The position numbers and the translations under genes are program-made. Under the pieces are notes generated by a model. That model had not been told where the DNA came from. It did not search any database and saw nothing but the letters and a program-made list of their open reading frames with translations. This document shows, one piece after another, positions 12,784 to 31,416 of a stretch of DNA of 35,943 nucleotides (positions are counted from its first letter, which is position 1; every line of letters starts with the position of its first letter). This DNA is from a virus, in the IMG/VR virus record IMGVR_UViG_3300003267_000152, positions 1 to 35,943 of that record. One strand, written 5' to 3'.

Positions 12784-15294
12784 CTACCCTCCCTCGGTCT
12801 CGAGCTGGAGGTCGAGCCCCTGGACCTCGAACGGCATGGGGTCGACTTGGTCGATAGTGTACGTCAGCGGCTCCCAGGTCCAGTTGGTCGAGTCGTCGAT
12901 TTCCTTGGCGCCGGTGAACGCCGCCGGCGCGGCATCGAACTGGCCGAGGTCCGTCCGCAGGTCGATGAGCTCGCGGCCGTTCACCCGAACGCCGAGGCTC
13001 TGGTAGACCTGGAGCTTGGCCTTGACCACCCGCTTCTTTCGGAGCAGGTAGTCGCCGTCCTGGAGCTGGACGTTGAGCGGCATGGTCGTAATGACCGGGT
13101 TCCAATCGAAGCCGACCTCGTAGGCCGAGACCGCGTAGGCCGCGTTGCCGGCGCCTGCGGTCAGCGCGACGTCGTTGAGGGTCTTGCCGTCGGCCCGGCA
13201 GCGAACCGTCGCCGTGAGGTTGGCGCGGCCGGTGGCGATGGTCGTCGCTGCCGGGCCGTTGGTGCCCTGGTAGGCCGAGTCGAGGTAGTAGCTCTCGCTG
13301 TACTCCTCGAGGTCGAGCTCGGCGACGCCGTTGATGGTGCGCTGGACCGCCAGGTAGATGACCTCGCCGACCACGCCGACCGCCTTGAACAGGCCCGGGT
13401 TGTTGGCCGTGCCGGTGGTCCACTTGACCCAGGCGTTCACGTCCTGGGAGCGGATGGTGTTGAGCACCGCCATCGTGCCGTCGGTGTTGACGACGAGGAT
13501 GAGGTTGGAGTCGTCGCTGCTCGAGCCCTGGAAGCCGGCCAGGTCGACGATGCCGTTGAGCAGGTGCGACGCCATGATGGAGAGCGGCGGCGCGCCGTAG
13601 GCTTCCTCCTCCTGGCCGAAGACGAACGAGCGGAGCACCTTGCCCGTGCGCTGGACGAACGAGGTCGCGCCGTCGATGTTGACCGGCCGGATGCGCTTGC
13701 TGCCGAACTTGGTCTGGAGCGAGAGGAAGCCGTTGCCCGGCGTGATGGGCGCCTCGGTGAAGTAGAGCTCCGCGCCGGTGGTGAAGACCTGACAGTCGCG
13801 CCCGCCGACGATGTTCTGGATGCCGTTGAACTGGTCGGTCGCCAGCGTGAACTGGATGGGGTCGTCGTCGAGCCCCTCGCTGGTCTCGAAGTCGAAGTAG
13901 CTCGAGCTGCGGGACGCGAACACCGTGGTCGGCAGGCTCTTGGTGCCGCCGAACCAGAGGCGCGCTTCATGGAACGCGACCGAGCGCGGGTAGCCACGGG
14001 CCGCGCTCCACGCCTTCTCGGTCCGCGGCACGCCGTCAGCGACCGCCGTGACCGCGATGCGGTTGGCGCTGTTGCCCGTGACGGGCACGCCAATCATCAG
14101 GTCGTAGTCGTCGGCGCTGTCCTCGGCGAAGGTGAGGCGGTAGGTCAGCGCGCCGGTGCGGCTCACGCTCACGCCCGCGGTGCCGGTGGTCCAGCACGCC
14201 TGGACCTCGCGGCGGATGTTCTCCATCGTCTTGTTCTGCTGCGCCGCGTTCGCATCGCCGGCGTAAACAATGTCGCCAGAGAGCGCGCCGTCGACGTCGA
14301 GCTTGAACTTGTCGCCTGCGGCCCACGCGCCGCCGGTGAGCTGAATGTCCTGCTGTTCGGAGGTCGGCGTCGGGGAGCTGGTGTCGTTGTAGTCGACCAT
14401 CGGCCAGCTCGAGAAGGGCACGTCGTCGACGTACCAGACCGTGCCGGCGGTGCCGCGGAGCAGGCGCAGCGGATGGACGTCTTCATGGACGAAGATGCCG
14501 GTGTTGAGCGCCTGGGCGTAGTCGACGTCGGCGAGCTGCGCCGAGGTGAACGGCGAGCGCACGTTGGCGACCACCGCGCCCGCGCTGTAGACCGCGATGT
14601 TGCGGTCGGTCAGCGCGAGCAGGTAGCCGGTCGAGGTGTTGAACTCGAACGGGAGCAGCCGCCCGACCGAGACCGTGGTGGTCTCGACCCACAGGCTGAA
14701 CTCCTTGAGGATGACCTGCGCGGTGGTGAGGTCGGTCGCGCCGACGCGCGCGATGCGCCAGTAGCGCGCGGTGACGCCGGTGCCGGCGCTGCCGCGGCGG
14801 TAGGTGCGCGAGGTCGAGTCGACGCGCTCGAGCGCGGAGCCGAGCGTGTTGAAGGTGACGTTGTCGGTCGACCATTGGATGACGAACTCGGTCGAGACCG
14901 CGCTCGCCAGGACGTCGAGCTTGATGCCGTGCGCGTCCGCGTAGTTGACCTTCTGGGCGCTGCCGAGGTCGTAGTGGACCACGACGTAGGGGTTGATGAC
15001 GCCGATGTTGACCGTGGTGTCGACCACGGTGGACTCGTCGTTGTCGTTGGCGTTCGCGGTGGTGCCGCCTTGCGGGCACGTGATGGTCATGCCGGTCAGG
15101 CGCGTGAGCGTGAACGGGAGCCGGTCGCGGAAGCGCAGGCCGCCACGGCGCCGCGCGCCGCCCTGGGGGCGGATGACGATGTTGGTGCCGACCGAGCACC
15201 CGCTGTAATACTGGCGCAGATCGGCGCGCGCGGCCATCAGCGGCGAGAGCACGCCGCTGGCGAAGTGCGTCTGGAGGTAGTGGGCGCGGCCCAC
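12784..15294 (-). CDS. tail tubular protein B (nozzle), with discoidin-like insertion
   Basis: 836 residues; the GTG overlaps the TAG of the tubular A gene (TAGTG). The N-terminus has the nozzle signature: GVLSPLMAARADLRQYYSG, then RPQGGARRRGGLRF and, further on, GRLLPFEFN and SPFTSAQLADVDYAQ. The second half carries the usual VLRSFVFGQEEEAYG and DLAGFQGSS phrases. The protein forms the distal tail tube through which DNA exits. Residues about 60-208, between the RRxGG and LLPFEF motifs, are extra relative to the plain T7 layout. They look like an F5/8 type C (discoidin) beta-sandwich: HYDLGSAQKVNYADAHG, EFVIQWSTDNVTF and TARYWRIARVG. Confidence 0.9.
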   Translation of the reverse strand: MGRAHYLQTHFASGVLSPLMAARADLRQYYSGCSVGTNIVIRPQGGARRRGGLRFRDRLPFTLTRLTGMTITCPQGGTTANANDNDESTVVDTTVNIGVINPYVVVHYDLGSAQKVNYADAHGIKLDVLASAVSTEFVIQWSTDNVTFNTLGSALERVDSTSRTYRRGSAGTGVTARYWRIARVGATDLTTAQVILKEFSLWVETTTVSVGRLLPFEFNTSTGYLLALTDRNIAVYSAGAVVANVRSPFTSAQLADVDYAQALNTGIFVHEDVHPLRLLRGTAGTVWYVDDVPFSSWPMVDYNDTSSPTPTSEQQDIQLTGGAWAAGDKFKLDVDGALSGDIVYAGDANAAQQNKTMENIRREVQACWTTGTAGVSVSRTGALTYRLTFAEDSADDYDLMIGVPVTGNSANRIAVTAVADGVPRTEKAWSAARGYPRSVAFHEARLWFGGTKSLPTTVFASRSSSYFDFETSEGLDDDPIQFTLATDQFNGIQNIVGGRDCQVFTTGAELYFTEAPITPGNGFLSLQTKFGSKRIRPVNIDGATSFVQRTGKVLRSFVFGQEEEAYGAPPLSIMASHLLNGIVDLAGFQGSSSDDSNLILVVNTDGTMAVLNTIRSQDVNAWVKWTTGTANNPGLFKAVGVVGEVIYLAVQRTINGVAELDLEEYSESYYLDSAYQGTNGPAATTIATGRANLTATVRCRADGKTLNDVALTAGAGNAAYAVSAYEVGFDWNPVITTMPLNVQLQDGDYLLRKKRVVKAKLQVYQSLGVRVNGRELIDLRTDLGQFDAAPAAFTGAKEIDDSTNWTWEPLTYTIDQVDPMPFEVQGLDLQLETEGG

Positions 15295-17578: not shown

Positions 17579-17587
17579 TGTGGATAA
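17579..17587 (-). promoter_or_regulatory. isolated DnaA box in capsid leader
   Basis: TTATCCACA on the minus strand, an exact match to the high-affinity DnaA box. Its end overlaps the -10 element of the capsid promoter candidate by two bases. Bound DnaA would be placed to repress or time this promoter. Other perfect copies in the window are clustered at 26.9-27.1 kb plus one at 31175. Confidence 0.45.
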
Positions 17588-18914: not shown

Positions 18915-20497
18915 GCCGGCGCCCCGCCTCGCTGCTGGATGGCCTGCGCTCCCGCGGCGACCGTCTTCTTGAGCTCCGCCTGCTCCTCCTCGGTACGGAT
19001 GAGCGACTGGTCGAGCCCGGTCTTGCGACCGACGAACGCGGGGATGGCCTCGGTCTTGAAGCCGAGGTTGACGATTTCGGGACCGAGCGGCGCGCACACC
19101 TCGAGCGCGCGAGAGAGCGCGAGCAGGTCTTCGGTGTCCTGCGCCCGGGCGAGCGGGCTCACGTACTTGAGCGTGATGAGCTTGCCGTCGACCTTGAGCG
19201 GCGGAATCTTGCCGCGGCGGACAAGAATGTCCGTCGCGCGGCGCACGATGGCGGTGAGCAGCTCGCTCTGGATGCGGCCGAACATCGCGCCCTGCTGCTG
19301 GAGCAGGTCGCGGTCTTCGATGGCGACCTCGGTCGCGGTCTGGACCGGACCCTCGCGGCGCCGCGTGTCGACCATCAGCGTCTTACGAATGTCCTCGCGG
19401 AGCTGGAGAATCATGTCCTGGCTGATGGCGAAGTTGCCGCCCATGTCGAGCGCGCGCAGCGACGGGTTGCCGTCGGCGTTGCTGGCGACCGGGATGATGG
19501 TCGCCGGGGCGAACTGCGCGGTGTAGGGGTTGAGCACGCCATCGCTGACCGAGGTGAACGGCGGCGCAATCTGGAGCGCGGAGTGGCGGAGCTGGAACTC
19601 CACCATCGCGTTGAGCGTCCTGATGTTGGGCAGCGCCTTGAGCACGTTGCCGCGGCCGTACAGCTCGCCCGGTCGCACGCTCGCGCGCGCGACGATGTAC
19701 GGGCCGGTCAGGCCGTAGTCGTAGCGCCACACCACCTCGTCCTGGTCGATGACCACGCCGTAGTAGTGGCCGTCCTTGGGACGGAAGACGCATCCGTAGG
19801 TGAGCGTGACCGGCGCCTCGGGGTTCTCCTTCACGCCCTTCTTGGTCTTGGTCGTGAGCTTGATGCCGGGGAACATCCGCTCGATGTTGCGGCCGCGCGG
19901 CTTGCGCTCGAGCCAGCAGGTCTCGACCGTGCCCCACGGGCCCTCCTCGAGCTCGATTTCGGCGAGCGGGACCGAACGGAACTCGAGCACGCGCTCGCCG
20001 TCGCCTTCGTCGCACGTCAGCGCGCACGTACCGACCATGAGGTCTTGGTAGCACTCGGCGAGCACGCTCGAGAGGTTGCTGTGGTTGAGGTGCTGGAACA
20101 GGACGTTGGTCGCGTCCTGGAGCTGCTCGAGGATGGCGGGGTCTTCGGACTCTTGCGGGTTGACCTCGGAGCCCGGACCGTACTGGCACCACTCGCGCCA
20201 GCTCGGCGTGAGCATGGACTGGAGCAGATTCGCGGCCTCGTCGACCGCGGCCACGGCGGTCGAGTCGTACAGCTCACGGCCGAGCTTCTCGCCCTCGCTG
20301 CCCTCGGTGAAGTAGAAGGTCTCGCGCTGCGGCAGCGCGTACTCGTAGGCTTCGCGGTAGATGGCGACCCACTTGGTCTTGCGCTCGGCCGCCTTCTTGC
20401 GACGGTCGAGGAGCGCCTTGGCGTTCTCGAGGTCGGGCGGGAGCAGCGCGAGGAGCCGCGGCCCGTTGACCGGCTTGGTGGGGAGAGCGCGCTTCAC
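18911..20497 (-). CDS. portal (head-tail connector) protein
   Basis: 528 residues, the typical size of T7 gp8-like connectors. The start is GTG overlapping the previous TGA. The N-terminal region has KWVAIYREAYEYALPQRETF and LYDSTAVAAVDEAANLLQSMLTPSWREW, diagnostic of the podovirus head-to-tail connector family. ARASVRPGELYGRGNVLKALPNIRTLN and a clip/crown helical region DTRRREGPVQTATEVAIEDRD follow. Twelve copies form the DNA channel at the head vertex and bind terminase and tubular A. It is followed by Bbp19-like and scaffold genes. Confidence 0.92.
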   Translation of the reverse strand: MKRALPTKPVNGPRLLALLPPDLENAKALLDRRKKAAERKTKWVAIYREAYEYALPQRETFYFTEGSEGEKLGRELYDSTAVAAVDEAANLLQSMLTPSWREWCQYGPGSEVNPQESEDPAILEQLQDATNVLFQHLNHSNLSSVLAECYQDLMVGTCALTCDEGDGERVLEFRSVPLAEIELEEGPWGTVETCWLERKPRGRNIERMFPGIKLTTKTKKGVKENPEAPVTLTYGCVFRPKDGHYYGVVIDQDEVVWRYDYGLTGPYIVARASVRPGELYGRGNVLKALPNIRTLNAMVEFQLRHSALQIAPPFTSVSDGVLNPYTAQFAPATIIPVASNADGNPSLRALDMGGNFAISQDMILQLREDIRKTLMVDTRRREGPVQTATEVAIEDRDLLQQQGAMFGRIQSELLTAIVRRATDILVRRGKIPPLKVDGKLITLKYVSPLARAQDTEDLLALSRALEVCAPLGPEIVNLGFKTEAIPAFVGRKTGLDQSLIRTEEEQAELKKTVAAGAQAIQQRGGAPA

Positions 20498-20811
20498 TTC
20501 GCCGCCGTGATGCCGCCGCCACCACCACCGCCGAATCCACCACCGCCACCGCCACCGCCGCCGGCGCCACCACCGCCGCCGCCGCCCCGACCGCGCGAGG
20601 TGAACGAGCCGCCAGCGGTCGCGGCGCCGGTATCAGCGAGCGACGCCGGCACGATGCCGGTGAGGAGCTGTTGGATGCCGAGGCGACCGCGGAGCAGCGC
20701 CTTCTTGCGCGCGTTCTCGAGTCGGTCGAGCCGGTCGAGCTCGTTGGTGTTGCGCTTGCGGAGGTACTGCTCCTCCTGCGTCGGGGGCGGAACCTTCGGG
20801 GAGCTGCCCAT
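20494..20811 (-). CDS. small head-region protein with polyglycine tail
   Basis: 105 residues. The N-terminal half is charged and helical (PPPTQEEQYLRKRNTNELDRLDRLEN), then comes a short RLGIQQLLTG segment. Residues about 75-100 are almost all glycine, broken by single Ala, Phe and Arg, ending ITAAK. Similar small proteins starting with a 'K.P.PT..E..YL' phrase occur just upstream of podovirus portals; function is unknown. The polyglycine is probably disordered. Its GGC/GGT repeats are slippage-prone, so the length may vary between relatives or assemblies. Confidence 0.7.
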   Translation of the reverse strand: MGSSPKVPPPTQEEQYLRKRNTNELDRLDRLENARKKALLRGRLGIQQLLTGIVPASLADTGAATAGGSFTSRGRGGGGGGGAGGGGGGGGGFGGGGGGGITAAK

Positions 20812-23101: not shown

Positions 23102-23696
23102 CGGCCTCGACCTCGACGTCGGCGACCTTGCGGCCAGACAGGTCGACGACCTTGACCCGGGCCCGGACCACGGCGCCCTCGTCGCCGAACATCTTGAGGA
23201 ACCGACCGAGGTCGCGGAGCGCGTCGAGCTTGTTGAGCAGCTTGACCTTGCGGATGGTCTCGACCTCGGTCTCCGCGTCGGCGTTGCCCTCGTCGTCCTC
23301 GCCCTTCTTGGTGCGGCTCGTCTTGACGTGCTCGACCTCGAAGCCAAGCAAGGCGCGGCGGGCGCGCTCCGGCATCTGGGGCACGGGGAGCAGGTTGCCG
23401 TCGGCGTCGTAGAAGTCGGCCGGGTCCAGGAAGGCGACGTTGCGGAACTCGTTGACCACCTCCTTGACCGTGACCAGGGCGGTGTCCTCGAGCTCGGTGC
23501 GGTGCCTGGCGAGCGCAGCCTGGACCGCCGGCATGGCGAGCATCCGGGAGCCGGCCGCGTCGGGTCGCTTGCCCTTGAACCCGCACCGCACGATGGCGTC
23601 GGTCGCGTTGAGGTCTTTGAGGTACTCGGCGACGAACCGCTCCTGACCGACGACGGTCTTGGTGCGCTTGGTCTTGGTCGCGCGCTTGCCGCTCAC
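23091..23696 (-). CDS. terS: terminase small subunit
   Basis: 201 residues from a GTG overlapping the previous TGA (GTGA). The N-terminal DNA-binding domain has the Terminase_2 signature RFVAEYLKDLNATDAIVRCGF then GSRMLAMPAVQAALA (residues 20-63). A central NVAFLDPADFYDADGN block and a coiled region follow. The C-terminus, with RKVKLLNKLDALRDLGRFL, is the usual oligomerisation or TerL-contact part. It recognises the packaging site and recruits the large subunit encoded next but one. The basic N-terminal tail KRATKTKRTK suits DNA binding. Confidence 0.9.
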   Translation of the reverse strand: MSGKRATKTKRTKTVVGQERFVAEYLKDLNATDAIVRCGFKGKRPDAAGSRMLAMPAVQAALARHRTELEDTALVTVKEVVNEFRNVAFLDPADFYDADGNLLPVPQMPERARRALLGFEVEHVKTSRTKKGEDDEGNADAETEVETIRKVKLLNKLDALRDLGRFLKMFGDEGAVVRARVKVVDLSGRKVADVEVEADVR

Positions 23697-24244
23697 GTGG
23701 CGAACTCCAGTCGGCGCATGACCTCGAGCTCGAGGGTGGCGCGGTCGGTGTCGGGCAGGTAGTCCTGGAGGGCCAAGTCTAGCAGCGGGCTCCAGACGTC
23801 GCGCTCGAATCGGTCCTGGCTCATGGCATCGAAGGCGATGCTCTCGACGTCGAGCACGGAGCGCCCATCGGGGAGCAGCATCAGCTCGAACAGGCCGAGC
23901 TTGACCTTGACCTCCTTGAGGAAGGCGCGCATCGGCGGCGGCGGGTCGCGCCGGTCCGCCTCGCGCATGACCTCGAGCAGCGCGAACGCCTTGCGGTGGT
24001 GGCCGAGGTTGCGCGGTCGCTTCACCACGCACTTGACCACCTCGCCGAGCGCCCACGTCCGCATGGACTCGCGGCTCGCGTCGTCGGCAGGCCGAACGCC
24101 TTGCGGCGTGCGGACGAGGTACAGCTCGAGCCCTGAACGCGCCGAACCCTGGCCCCGCTTCCCGGAATGGTCGGGGGCAACCGTCGACTCCCCACCCGCC
24201 TTCCGTGGCGAGCCAGAGCCAGGGTTGGGCGCGCTCTCGCCCAT
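23693..24244 (-). CDS. DUF1367-like phage protein
   Basis: 183 residues starting MGESAPNPGSG, with a TGATG junction to the deformylase. The first 40 residues are low-complexity. The rest has the pattern of DUF1367 proteins: LGEVVKCVVKRPRNLGHHRKAFALLEVM (a basic, helical block), then LPDGRSVLDVESIAFDAMSQDRFE. DUF1367 proteins are found in replication or Nin-like regions of phages; function is unknown. The low-complexity start may not be translated; an internal start near the SGLELYLVR segment is possible. Confidence 0.65.
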   Translation of the reverse strand: MGESAPNPGSGSPRKAGGESTVAPDHSGKRGQGSARSGLELYLVRTPQGVRPADDASRESMRTWALGEVVKCVVKRPRNLGHHRKAFALLEVMREADRRDPPPPMRAFLKEVKVKLGLFELMLLPDGRSVLDVESIAFDAMSQDRFERDVWSPLLDLALQDYLPDTDRATLELEVMRRLEFAT

Positions 24245-24789
24245 CAGCCGCCCGCCTTCGGGTGGCCCGGCGGGTAGGTCACGTCCTTGGCCCGCTCGGT
24301 GAAGTTGATGCCGTTGAGGTGGTCGACCTCATGCTGGACCACCGCGGCCTCGAGCATTTCGAGCCGGCGCACCTGGCGCTCGCCGTCGAGGTTCAAGAAG
24401 CTGACCTTGATGGTCTTGGACCGGACCGTGCGCCCGCTCACGCCAGGCTGCGAGAGGCACGCCTCGGTCCACTCGGCGCGGCCGGTGCGGATGCCGATTT
24501 CCGGGTTGACCATGACCTCGGGGTCGCGTCCGCCGCCCCGGGTGTGCCCGACGTCGAACACGATGACCCGGACCATCGCGCCGACCTGTGGCGCCGCGAG
24601 CCCGATGCCACCGTTGTCGTACATGGTCGCCAGCATCCGGCCGGCGAGCAGGGCCAGCGCGCGCCTGCCGTCGACGTCCATGCCGTCGAAGTCGACCGGA
24701 GCGGCCGGCGCGTGGAGCCGCGGGTCCGCGAACGGGATGAGCTCGAGCGGCTCGAAGGCCGGGAGCGGGGCCGGCTGGTCCTCGGTCAT
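24244..24789 (-). CDS. def: peptide deformylase
   Basis: 181 residues; ATG overlaps the preceding TGA (ATGA). All three metal-site motifs are visible: motif 1 GIGLAAPQVG (61-70), motif 2 EACLSQPG (109-116, Cys111 as metal ligand) and motif 3 QHEVDHLNG (152-160, with His153, Glu154, His157). Motif 2 has Ala in place of the usual Gly (EGCLS), a conservative change also seen in some phage enzymes. The enzyme removes formyl from nascent proteins; in phages it may support host translation late in infection. It lacks any targeting signal. It is the only clear host-metabolism-type enzyme in the window. Confidence 0.93.
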   Translation of the reverse strand: MTEDQPAPLPAFEPLELIPFADPRLHAPAAPVDFDGMDVDGRRALALLAGRMLATMYDNGGIGLAAPQVGAMVRVIVFDVGHTRGGGRDPEVMVNPEIGIRTGRAEWTEACLSQPGVSGRTVRSKTIKVSFLNLDGERQVRRLEMLEAAVVQHEVDHLNGINFTERAKDVTYPPGHPKAGG

Positions 24790-25307
24790 TGGAGCTTCCT
24801 GGGCAGCATGATGACGGCCCCCCTGCGCTTGGCTGACTCCTGGCCGACAGCATAGCGCAACGCCTGGCCGAGCGTAGGCTGATTCGTCAGCTCGCCGGCG
24901 GTGTCGGTGATGGCGCGGAGCGCCTCCTGGAAGTCGGTGTCGGTCCGCCCCGCGGTCTTCCACAGGGTCGCCAGCTCGCGGGCGCCGTCGTACCAGGCGG
25001 CCACGTCGAAGTCGACTGCGGCCTGGAGCAGCTCGGCCATCAGCTCCTTGACGCTGGCCTCGGTGGCGGTGAGCTGCTTCGCGCGGTGCGGCGCCTGGTC
25101 GCTGACGAGGTAGACCTCGACGTCGGCCTCGGTCTTCTCGTAGACCAGCCACCCGCGCTCGATGTTGCGGGCGACCACGTCGCGGCTCGCCTCGTGCGCC
25201 AGCGCCCGGCGGAAGTAGTACCGCATCCCGTCGCACGCGAGCACGCGGGTCGGGTCGCGCATCGCCTGGGACCGCTCGGGGGCGGCCTTGTCGACCTTCG
25301 CGGTCAC
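24786..25307 (-). CDS. hypothetical protein, 173 residues
   Basis: GTG start overlapping the TGA of the HNH nuclease gene (GTGA). The protein is soluble and helical, with a conserved-looking central part CDGMRYYFRRALAHEASRDV and ERGWLVYEKTEADVEVY, and a C-terminal QALRYAVGQESAKRRGAV. No enzymatic motif is recognised. It lies between a Ref-like nuclease and the deformylase in a tightly overlapped leftward operon. I can assign no function. Confidence 0.62.
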   Translation of the reverse strand: MTAKVDKAAPERSQAMRDPTRVLACDGMRYYFRRALAHEASRDVVARNIERGWLVYEKTEADVEVYLVSDQAPHRAKQLTATEASVKELMAELLQAAVDFDVAAWYDGARELATLWKTAGRTDTDFQEALRAITDTAGELTNQPTLGQALRYAVGQESAKRRGAVIMLPRKLQ

Positions 25308-26213: not shown

Positions 26214-26401
26214 TTCTCGGCCGGCGTGGTGAACGCCTGGACCGCGCGCCGCACCGCACCCTCGTCCTCGACCTTGCGGAAGGGCAGGCCGGTGTTGGTG
26301 TGGAGCTGGCGGAACAGCCGCACGAAGGTCTCCTCGGGGCTCTCCTGCTCGGCGGGCCTCTCGCTCGCGCTGCGCTGCTTCACGTCTTCACCCTTCGCCA
26401 T
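26210..26401 (-). CDS. small hypothetical protein, 63 residues
   Basis: The ATG lies within the end of the replication gene and has a good ribosome site (AGGAGG, 7 bases before). The sequence MAKGEDVKQRSASERP is charged and disordered at first. A helical TFVRLFRQLHTNTGLPF then VRRAVQAF follows. It may be a helper of the replication protein, since its translation is linked to that gene. No family is recognised. Confidence 0.55.
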   Translation of the reverse strand: MAKGEDVKQRSASERPAEQESPEETFVRLFRQLHTNTGLPFRKVEDEGAVRRAVQAFTTPAEK

Positions 26402-27065
26402 GATGAGCCTCCTGGGCCTTGCGGTTGTGGTCGTCCCAAGCCGCCTTCACGCGAGCGTGCCAGGCAGCCGTCGATTCCGCGCCACCCTGCTTCAATGGCA
26501 GCGGATTGTCAAGCAGGCGGCGCCACGTGGTCGCCTCGTCGTGGAGCTTCTGCGTCGCGGCCTGCCGCGCCAAGCTCTCGCGGAAGCGCCGCGTCTCCTC
26601 GGTCTCGACCGGCGCGTGGAGCTCGTCGTCGACCTTGGTCCTCGTCGCCTGCCAGTTGCCGGCGAGCGCCTGGGGCGAGAGCAGCACGTTGGGCCAGAGC
26701 TGGCGGTAGCGCGCCGCGTGCGCCCGTATGAGCACAGGGGTCGCCTGGACCGCCCGGAGGTCGCGGGTCGCCGCGTTGAGCCGCCCTCGCTCCATCCTGG
26801 TCAGCCTGGCGACGTCGTAGCCGCACACCGAGGCCAGCTCCTCGAAGACTTCGTCGCGCGGACGAGCTCGCTTGGAGTTATCCACAGGGTTATCCACAGG
26901 CCGCGCTCGCTCTTGAGACTTCACTTGAGGCTCTGTGGATAACTCGCGTGAGCTCTTGGAAGTTGGAATCCTTCCCTCCTCCACCCTCTCTGCCTTACTA
27001 CCCTTAGTAGTTATAGAGGCAGGCAGGAGAGCTGTGGATAAGTCGAGCTGATGCGGCCTTTTCAT
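26388..27065 (-). CDS. replication-initiator-like protein (helicase-loading C-terminal domain)
   Basis: 225 residues. The first 75 are low-complexity and basic; they are written partly by repeated DnaA boxes, giving VDNPVDN- and LST-type phrases. Residues about 75-140 have the compact helical domain seen at the C-terminus of phage DnaD- or O-like initiators: FEELASVCGYDVARLT..ERGRLNAATRDLRAV..TPVLIRAHAARYRQLWPN, then LSPQALAGNWQATR. That domain is thought to contact the replicative helicase or loader. A winged-helix N-terminus that would bind DNA is missing. The ribosome site before ATG 27065 is poor, and the frame is open back to 27150 but with no other start. Confidence 0.72.
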   Translation of the reverse strand: MKRPHQLDLSTALLPASITTKGSKAERVEEGRIPTSKSSRELSTEPQVKSQERARPVDNPVDNSKRARPRDEVFEELASVCGYDVARLTRMERGRLNAATRDLRAVQATPVLIRAHAARYRQLWPNVLLSPQALAGNWQATRTKVDDELHAPVETEETRRFRESLARQAATQKLHDEATTWRRLLDNPLPLKQGGAESTAAWHARVKAAWDDHNRKAQEAHHGEG

Positions 27066-27119
27066 CGAGAATCGTAGCTCCGAGCCTGTTGATAAGTCTG
27101 TGGATAACCTTGTGGAAAA
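26878..27119. promoter_or_regulatory. DnaA-box cluster; putative replication origin
   Basis: Five exact DnaA boxes (TTATCCACA or its complement) lie at 26878-26886, 26890-26898, 26934-26942, 27033-27041 and 27099-27107. Near matches lie at 27087-27095 (TGTTGATAA) and 27111-27119 (TGTGGAAAA). The first two are a direct 12-base repeat. Between them lies a comparatively AT-richer stretch (about 26990-27020). The cluster spans the start of the initiator-like gene, as in lambda-like origins placed inside the initiator gene. So many exact boxes in high-GC DNA would be improbable by chance. Unwinding site and directionality are not shown. Confidence 0.72.
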
Positions 27120-27149
27120 GCTCCGGGTATCCCTGGGGGAACCCGTGGA

Positions 27150-27524
27150 CTACTTCGGCCAGGGAAGAACCTCGACCTCGGCGTCGTTGAAGGGCTTGAA
27201 GCGGGCGAAGACGAGCTGGTGAGGGCTCTCTGCCAGGACGCGGTCGGCGTTCATGCGTGCGACCGCGAACCCAAGGCCGCGGAGCTTGGCCCTCTCGCTC
27301 GAGCTGAACCAGCGGCAGAGCTGGTCGAGCGTGCGGACGCCGGTCCCGTGGTAGGCGCCGGGGATGCCGCGGGCCGTGATGAGGTCGTGACCGAACTCCT
27401 CCATCCAGGTCGGCTGATAGGTCGGGCGGCCTTGGTCAATCCACAGGGTCGTGATGCCGGGGCGGAAGGGGCCGCGCCCGTCAAGGTGTTGGACGCGGAG
27501 GACCACGCCAGGCGGGAGGCTCAC
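27150..27524 (-). CDS. hypothetical protein, 124 residues
   Basis: GTG start overlapping the upstream TGA (GTGA). The protein is globular, with VLRVQHLDGRGPFRPG near the start, ALGHDLIT- and GVRTLDQLCRWFSSSERAKLRGLGF in the middle and PHQLVFARFKPF at the end. Blocks resemble a small enzyme or nuclease-like fold, but no catalytic pattern is recognised. It sits between a winged-helix candidate and the replication gene in a leftward early operon. Confidence 0.6.
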   Translation of the reverse strand: MSLPPGVVLRVQHLDGRGPFRPGITTLWIDQGRPTYQPTWMEEFGHDLITARGIPGAYHGTGVRTLDQLCRWFSSSERAKLRGLGFAVARMNADRVLAESPHQLVFARFKPFNDAEVEVLPWPK

Positions 27525-27787
27525 GCCATGAGCCCCGCGCGCCGGCGCCGGCGGACCTCGGCCTTGCCCTTGGCGGTCAGGCAGACCTCGAGCGCGGCGC
27601 GGCTGTTGGCCGCCAGCACCTCGCGCTGCTCGACCAGCTCGAGCTCGACCAGGCGCGGGATGATGACCCCACGCTCCTTCACGGGGAGCCGCTGGAAGGT
27701 CGCGCGGTACAGGTCGCGCCGGCGCATCCAGCCATCGGCGCCGGCAAGGCAACGCAGCGCGCGCTGCTCGTTGAGGTTCAGGTCCAT
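27521..27787 (-). CDS. winged-helix-like DNA-binding protein (putative regulator)
   Basis: 88 residues. The pattern MDLNLNEQRALRCLAGADGWMRRRDLYRATFQRL, then RGVIIPRLVELELVEQ and LTAKGKAEVRRRRRAG is that of a small winged-helix domain: helix, helix, recognition helix, beta wing with a terminal 'T-KG' turn. It lacks the extra dimerisation helices of MarR-like proteins. The ribosome site AGGAG lies 10 bases before the ATG. The gene follows a promoter candidate after a leader of about 110 bases. It may regulate the leftward operon or contribute to origin function, since the initiator downstream lacks a winged helix. Confidence 0.62.
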   Translation of the reverse strand: MDLNLNEQRALRCLAGADGWMRRRDLYRATFQRLPVKERGVIIPRLVELELVEQREVLAANSRAALEVCLTAKGKAEVRRRRRAGLMA

Positions 27788-27904
27788 CGTCTTCGGTCTC
27801 CTGGTGTTGACGGCCGCCGCGTGGCCTACTCCCGCTTCTCTGCCTCGGCAGCTTTTCTAACCCGCTCCCGACGCTGCGCTTGCGTCAAGCACGCGACGGC
27901 CCGA

Positions 27905-30899: not shown

Positions 30900-31168
30900 G
30901 CCGCATCATCCCGTTCGAGCGGTGCCTCTCGCCGACCTTCGAGGCGCCGGAGCCCAAGCCCATCAGGCGCCGGCCGGAAGTCGAGCGCGAGCCGGAGCGG
31001 AGGACCGCGCCGAACGTGACGCCTTGCGGCGCCGATGGGTGCGACGGATTCCACCACCACCCGGTCAAGCTCAAGGCCGACCCGTTCGGGTTCGGTCTCA
31101 TGGTCCCGACCAAGGGCTCCTATTGCCCGGAGTCGGAGTGGTTCAAGTTCTGGAAGGAAACGCTCTGA
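30896..31168 (+). CDS. small hypothetical protein, 90 residues, possible metal binder
   Basis: GTG overlaps the upstream TGA (GTGA). After a proline- and arginine-rich, disordered first half (EPKPIRRRPEVEREPERR) come CGADGCDGFHHHP, a His/Cys cluster that could hold a metal ion, and an aromatic end SYCPESEWFKFWKE. Unrecognised family. Its stop overlaps the next ATG. Confidence 0.52.
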   Translation: MSRIIPFERCLSPTFEAPEPKPIRRRPEVEREPERRTAPNVTPCGADGCDGFHHHPVKLKADPFGFGLMVPTKGSYCPESEWFKFWKETL

Positions 31169-31416
31169 TGCTGATTATCCACAAGCTCAAGTGCCCGAGC
31201 TGCGGCAACGAGACCGCGGTCAACATCGAGGCGCCCAAGCCCGGCCACGCCGGCCGCGGCCTGACCACGTGCGGCTCCTGTAAGGAGACCATCGCGGTCG
31301 AGTACGTCGTCAAGGTCGAGGTCGATGCGACGCCCGGCCTCGTCACGTGGGACCGCCCGGTCCCGGCGGCGCCTGCCGCCGAGCCTGGTCCCGCTCCTGG
31401 TGGAGGTCAGCCGTGA
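31168..31416 (+). CDS. zinc-ribbon protein
   Basis: 82 residues; ATG overlaps the upstream TGA (TGATG). MLIIHKLKCPSCGNE (Cys9, Cys12) and TTCGSCKETIAVEY give two CxxC knuckles of a zinc ribbon. The C-terminus is a Pro/Ala-rich tail. An exact DnaA box (31175-31183) is embedded in codons 3-6 (the IIHK region). It may bind DNA or protein next to RecT, but this is only from the motif. Confidence 0.6.
   Translation: MLIIHKLKCPSCGNETAVNIEAPKPGHAGRGLTTCGSCKETIAVEYVVKVEVDATPGLVTWDRPVPAAPAAEPGPAPGGGQP

Follow-up and report, generated by a model that had tools for sequence, protein, structure and literature searches.

A DnaA-box cluster at an initiator-like gene as a probable host-DnaA-recognised origin in a high-GC phage contig

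The window analysed here is the whole IMG/VR record IMGVR_UViG_3300003267_000152, a viral contig of 35,943 bp with about 69% GC. Its minus strand carries, in order, small ORFs, an initiator-like gene, a peptide deformylase, NinB, terminase and virion genes, and RecT and a YqaJ exonuclease are encoded on the plus strand. The genes around the initiator-like ORF, and the conserved domain within it, are as follows.

23693 to 24244, minus strand: NinB/Orf-type recombination mediator, downstream and in the same direction (phrog_319, E 1.5e-21)
24247 to 24795, minus strand: phage-borne peptide deformylase gene (NCBIfam, E 1.3e-34)
26388 to 27065, minus strand: initiator-like ORF of 225 aa, with about 65 atypical N-terminal codons and a conserved C-terminal domain
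26619 to 26852, minus strand: conserved five-helix C-terminal domain, residues 72-149 (family alignment/profile and structure model)
27150 to 27524, minus strand: upstream co-oriented ORF (phrog_1106, E 7e-4; no HTH match)

The position of an initiator-like gene ahead of NinB corresponds to a lambda-like gene order. The contig has no recognised gene for a DNA polymerase, a primase or a helicase, unlike its TerL relative BcepC6B, and this suggests that replication probably relies on the host machinery. BcepC6B and other TerL relatives were considered as a guide and set aside, since BcepC6B encodes polymerases of its own and its early region is unlike that of the window. The highest repeat density of the contig was seen at about 20440-20690, in a low-complexity stretch just upstream of the head-tail connector start.

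A pattern search of 26878-27119 (242 bases) returned five exact copies of the DnaA box TTATCCACA and two copies with one mismatch, in agreement with the cluster that the first-pass annotation had described for this high-GC genome.

26878 to 26886, plus strand: exact DnaA box, TTATCCACA
26890 to 26898, plus strand: exact DnaA box, at 12-bp pitch with the box at 26878
26934 to 26942, minus strand: exact DnaA box, read as LST in the ORF
27033 to 27041, minus strand: exact DnaA box, read as LST in the ORF, 16 nt from a trio-like element
27087 to 27095, minus strand: DnaA box with one mismatch (TTATCAACA)
27099 to 27107, minus strand: exact DnaA box
27111 to 27119, minus strand: DnaA box with one mismatch (TTTTCCACA)

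Ten sites with at most one mismatch to TTATCCACA were present in the whole 36-kb contig, compared to an expectation of 0.79 +/- 0.87 from dinucleotide shuffles, and the largest count in any of 100 shuffles was three. The boxes at 27087, 27099 and 27111 share the 12-bp pitch of the pair at 26878 and 26890, and that pair, read on the minus strand, encodes PVDNPVDNS. Lone exact boxes lie at 17579-17587 (minus strand), between the major head protein and scaffold genes, and at 31175-31183 (plus strand), in an AT-rich spot (31141-31190, 44% GC) upstream of recT. Besides the DnaA boxes, no repeat family with at least three copies was detected in 26380-27800, and no iterons were found in this interval near the initiator-like gene. 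No close relatives of the contig were found.

We next consider the stability of the DNA, calculated as nearest-neighbour stacking energy along the whole contig. The least stable segments at every length considered fell in the cluster (30 bp, 26988-27017; 50 bp, 26994-27043; 100 bp, 26918-27017), together with the following features.

26872 to 27121, no strand: least stable 250-bp segment of the contig, a candidate unwinding region (5.6 sd above mean stacking energy; 51.6% GC)
27005 to 27016, plus strand: TAGTAGTTATAG, DnaA-trio-like, with a 16-nt spacer to the box at 27033 and the orientation of DnaA-trios

The origin-like architecture proposed in the first-pass annotation was thus supported, in that the dense boxes coincide with the deepest stability minimum of the contig. 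DnaA-trio elements are described as having at least three contiguous trios and a spacer to the box of at most 16 nt (PMC8287927). When TAGTAGTTATAG was split into trios, three of the four read 3'-GAT-5' with one interruption, giving a longest contiguous run of two; TAGTAGNNNTAG occurs once on the plus strand of the contig, inside this element. We regard TAGTAGTTATAG as a suggestive candidate DnaA-trio element only. Trios as a general mark of viral box clusters were rejected: among 118 other viral clusters there was no run of four and no trio excess, the downstream and upstream sides being alike. The earlier annotation had also proposed cumulative GC skew as a check, a minimum elsewhere speaking against an origin here. 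The minimum was found near the contig ends and the maximum near 28.4 kb, formally against the proposal; because the skew tracks gene orientation on both arms, it is uninformative for the origin and was dropped as a test.

The first-pass annotation placed the boxes inside the gene, encoding the N-terminus of its product, a placement that is uncertain. The frame 26388-27149 (minus strand) is open through the cluster and has its first ATG at 27065; the chance probability of such an open frame is 0.03-0.06. A coding signal was absent: codon log-odds, from a training set of 12 other contig genes (5,536 codons), stayed below zero in each of the six frames between about 26840 and 27150 and recovered at the conserved domain, where codon usage is normal. 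The codons TTA, ACA and ATA, never used in the training set, are present in 26840-27150, and rare codons make up about 29 of the first 66 codons of the initiator-like ORF. The box region may therefore be either a spacer, with a later GTG start, or a translated linker shaped by selection at the DNA level. Since PVDNPVDNS matches a peptide found in other phage initiators, translation of at least the two domain-proximal boxes is favoured.

Direct similarity searches with the initiator-like protein gave nothing convincing in phages, plasmids, IMG/VR, genomes, Pfam, PHROGs, NCBIfam or PDB. In Pfam the sole hit was HTH_31 (E 0.014, below the cut-off), inside the C-terminal domain; a PDB profile search with the domain family returned only geminin (E 0.2), and no plasmid matches to the domain were obtained. 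Relatives were reached by way of a DNA pattern for the motif W-P-x3-L-T-P-x-A-L-x2-N-W alone, which gave 15 IMG/VR stretches; a subsequent alignment search added L150 and L151, and a bacterial-genome scan with the family alignment added one more, L164, from an Actinomycetota MAG. Identity to the C-terminal domain of the window over 66-76 aa was 47% for L150, 45% for L151 and 42% for L152. BLASTP with the L140/L152 protein against the window protein gave 3e-10 over 69 residues, and an HMM built from the relatives without the window protein recovered it at E 4.6e-23. By these sequence comparisons, the window protein shares the C-terminal domain of a phage-initiator family. L135 and L138 have HTH_36 N-termini and PHROG labels of 'replication initiation', 'O-like' or 'DnaD-like helicase loader', and the L140 protein matches a replication-initiation PHROG.

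In nearly all relatives the domain stands behind an N-terminal region, a wHTH where one is recognised. The N-terminus of L164 is winged-helix-like by eye, L150 and L151 have longer N-terminal regions without domain assignment, and L153 has the C-terminal domain with no recognised wHTH and no DnaA boxes. The window protein was said earlier to lack a DNA-binding domain, and the profile searches agree: the wHTH profile found no match in six frames of the whole contig (best E 2.8), though relatives carry one. The same search ruled out a hidden or frameshifted upstream wHTH. The missing wHTH and the N-terminal half without normal codon usage could mean that the contig represents a defective prophage or a decayed phage in which the DNA-binding half of the initiator has been lost, the boxes being left over from a composite origin. 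We consider this very improbable: the codon usage of the C-terminal domain is normal, the structural genes are open frames, and a set of seven boxes, only two of them with a single mismatch, where box-bearing initiator genes usually have two or three boxes, argues for active selection.

AlphaFold2 predicted a confident five-helix domain at residues 72-149 (pLDDT about 96 when the full protein was modelled; a mean of 88 when the domain was modelled by itself). The top match of a structural aligner was lambda P in the DnaB-lambda P complex (9oa1; residues 37-120), with Z 6.8 for the full model and 6.3 for the domain, and a DnaD-like CTD (2zc2) was also listed (Z 4.2 and 3.7, respectively); these scores are too low to exclude a chance match between helices. 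With Foldseek by itself, no structural hit reached significance (E > 1). The weak likeness to the lambda P and DnaD folds may thus reflect a common helical arrangement. In lambda P, fragment 103-233 binds DnaB (PMC6391071), and P loses its function when residues 9-86 are deleted (PMC3640518). Because the matched part (37-120) is mostly outside the DnaB-binding fragment, helicase contact by the C-terminal domain, assumed in the first-pass annotation, is a hypothesis only.

In L150, L151, L152 and L164 the linker preceding the C-terminal domain ranks first, or close to first, in repeat density within its locus. The repeats are iteron-like: L152 has 11-bp GACCGTCACGC units and L164 12-bp CGGTGGTCCAGT units, L151 has ATCGGGTCACCCGAT, and L150 combines 11-bp units with a simple repeat; low-GC relatives showed no clear iterons. 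At the same linker position the window has DnaA boxes in place of the repeats. TTRTCCACA was found once in total across the eleven viral records that hold relatives.

A scan of IMG/VR for tandem boxes at 12-bp pitch returned at least 120 loci, and among the matches listed 49 loci had four or more boxes. The idea that phage box clusters always lie beside replication genes was rejected, as neighbours among the matches listed were mixed and included lysis, terminase and GP88 genes. Since viral contigs often have tandem DnaA boxes next to unrelated genes, boxes alone do not define an origin. The cluster could instead be a DnaA-responsive control region for early transcription, or a DnaA sink, with replication starting elsewhere, as the many box arrays beside non-replication genes, the lone exact boxes at 17579 and 31175 and a box region as devoid of coding signal as a regulatory spacer would allow. 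This seems quite unlikely given that the cluster coincides with the deepest stability minimum of the contig, that an initiator-family gene lies there in lambda-like gene order, and that the VDN pair occupies the linker position where other initiators hold boxes or iterons.

We also asked in which phase the tandem boxes are read, counting ORFs with at least 70 residues ahead of the boxes that run through them with TGTGGATAA on the coding strand. Among the matches listed, the VDN phase was seen 29 times and the only other stop-free phase twice, a count that includes many related loci and does not represent independent events. The wHTH profile matched at least 13 tandem-box loci (about six lineages) in which the boxes lie in frame behind the wHTH and encode a PVDNxVDN-type peptide, as in the window. 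Curated profiles identified the initiator of L028 (Phage_rep_O, 2e-10), named L048 (HTH_36, 2.7e-8) and L035 as HTH_36 replication initiators, and assigned L171, L183 and L203 as replication initiators. A 26-nt core of the window, CCTGTGGATAACCCTGTGGATAACTC, was found in 16 IMG/VR stretches, in eight of which it lies within wHTH initiator-like ORFs, and is identical in L171, L183, L194, L212, L213, L215, L216 and L222. The C-terminal parts of the box-bearing wHTH initiators showed no match to the domain model of the window. In-gene DnaA-box modules thus recur in phage initiators, and the chimeric initiation system suggested in the first-pass annotation is less unique than it was made out to be.

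The wHTH initiator-like proteins of L171, L183, L194, L213, L215, L222 and L216 stop a few residues after PVDNPVDNS, the mirror image of the window protein, which retains the C-terminal half only. In L171, L183 and L194 an HNH/terminase-like ORF closely follows the gene, and an AT-rich CTAAGAACTATAAGA-type stretch separates the two. The similar high-GC viral contigs L041 (105-360), L079 (3205-3460) and L177 carry two DnaA-box arrays, each with 3-5 boxes and separated by about 170-200 bp, in the interval from a small-terminase-like ORF to the large terminase gene. At a contig end, near 12900-13379, L210 has about 24 DnaA boxes (at most one mismatch) within 600 bp.

In the four box-bearing initiators examined for it (L028, L048, L035 and L171), additional repeats occur no more than about 100 bp from the boxes. 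These repeats, and the retention by other box-bearing phage initiators of their own wHTH, speak for a composite origin, in which DnaA is accessory, as it is in iteron plasmids, and an unrecognised phage DNA-binding partner acts with the C-terminal-domain protein. The candidate partner is the small ORF at 27524-27799, which is winged-helix-like by eye only; it matches no HTH family and is absent from the wHTH-profile hits, and 26380-27800 has no repeats of three or more copies besides the boxes. We judge a composite origin unlikely on this evidence.

We consider it probable that 26.87-27.12 kb is a phage replication origin recognised by host DnaA and served by a reduced initiator. From the boxes, the stability minimum, the C-terminal homology, the lack of a wHTH match and the recurrence of in-frame boxes in phage initiators, we infer DnaA binding, opening, origin activity and helicase recruitment at the cluster. 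Host DnaA would bind the high-affinity boxes in 26.87-27.12 kb and, once bound, would melt the adjacent AT-rich stretch. The product of 26388-27065 (minus strand) would then recruit or load the helicase, replacing the host loader or acting beside it. The phage protein would be a reduced initiator that has kept its C-terminal domain and has DnaA boxes in its linker segment. The stricter version, in which the origin is purely DnaA-specified, with recognition and opening left to host DnaA, the phage's own recognition domain and iterons discarded and the remnant initiator only recruiting helicase, is put forward tentatively. Such an origin would close a series where in-gene DnaA boxes first assist and then replace phage recognition.

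If the proposal is true, phage replication would be coupled to the host cell cycle as well as to host DnaA and the ATP state of DnaA, and the passage of origin recognition from virus to host would become testable. Tandem boxes read as PVDNxVDN after a wHTH could serve as a signature for candidate origins in uncultured phages; no description of an in-frame DnaA-box module in phage initiators was found in searches of the open-licence literature.

Several known systems resemble the locus in part. Iteron plasmid origins of the P1 oriR type carry DnaA boxes, and like them the window has DnaA boxes adjoining an initiator-like gene, but it has neither Rep-binding iterons nor plasmid Rep homology. The helicase loaders lambda P and DnaD give the best, though weak, matches to the predicted five-helix fold of the window protein, and sequence similarity was not detected. 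Bacterial oriC (PMC8287927) has in common with the locus a cluster of consensus boxes, an unstable segment and a trio-like element in the right orientation; the window differs in being phage-borne and away from dnaA, with imperfect trios (three of four, interrupted) and a spacer at the 16-nt limit. The box-bearing wHTH initiators (L028, L035, L048/L191/L203, the L171/L183 group, L212 and L216) have tandem exact boxes at 12-bp pitch encoding a PVDNxVDN-type peptide after the wHTH; they have two or three boxes, with further repeats in the four examined, whereas the window is the extreme case, having seven boxes and neither iterons nor a wHTH. The usual description of lambda O-type phage initiators is that they recognise an origin of their own. 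The in-gene origins of the lambda O, O-like and HTH_36 type share with the window a replication gene before NinB and origin-like repeats within or beside the linker that leads into the C-terminal domain; in the window the N-terminal wHTH is absent, DnaA boxes replace the iterons, and similarity to lambda O is not detectable. The locus is most likely a DnaA-specified variant of the lambda-type in-gene origin and belongs with a class of box-bearing initiators that recurs among phages.
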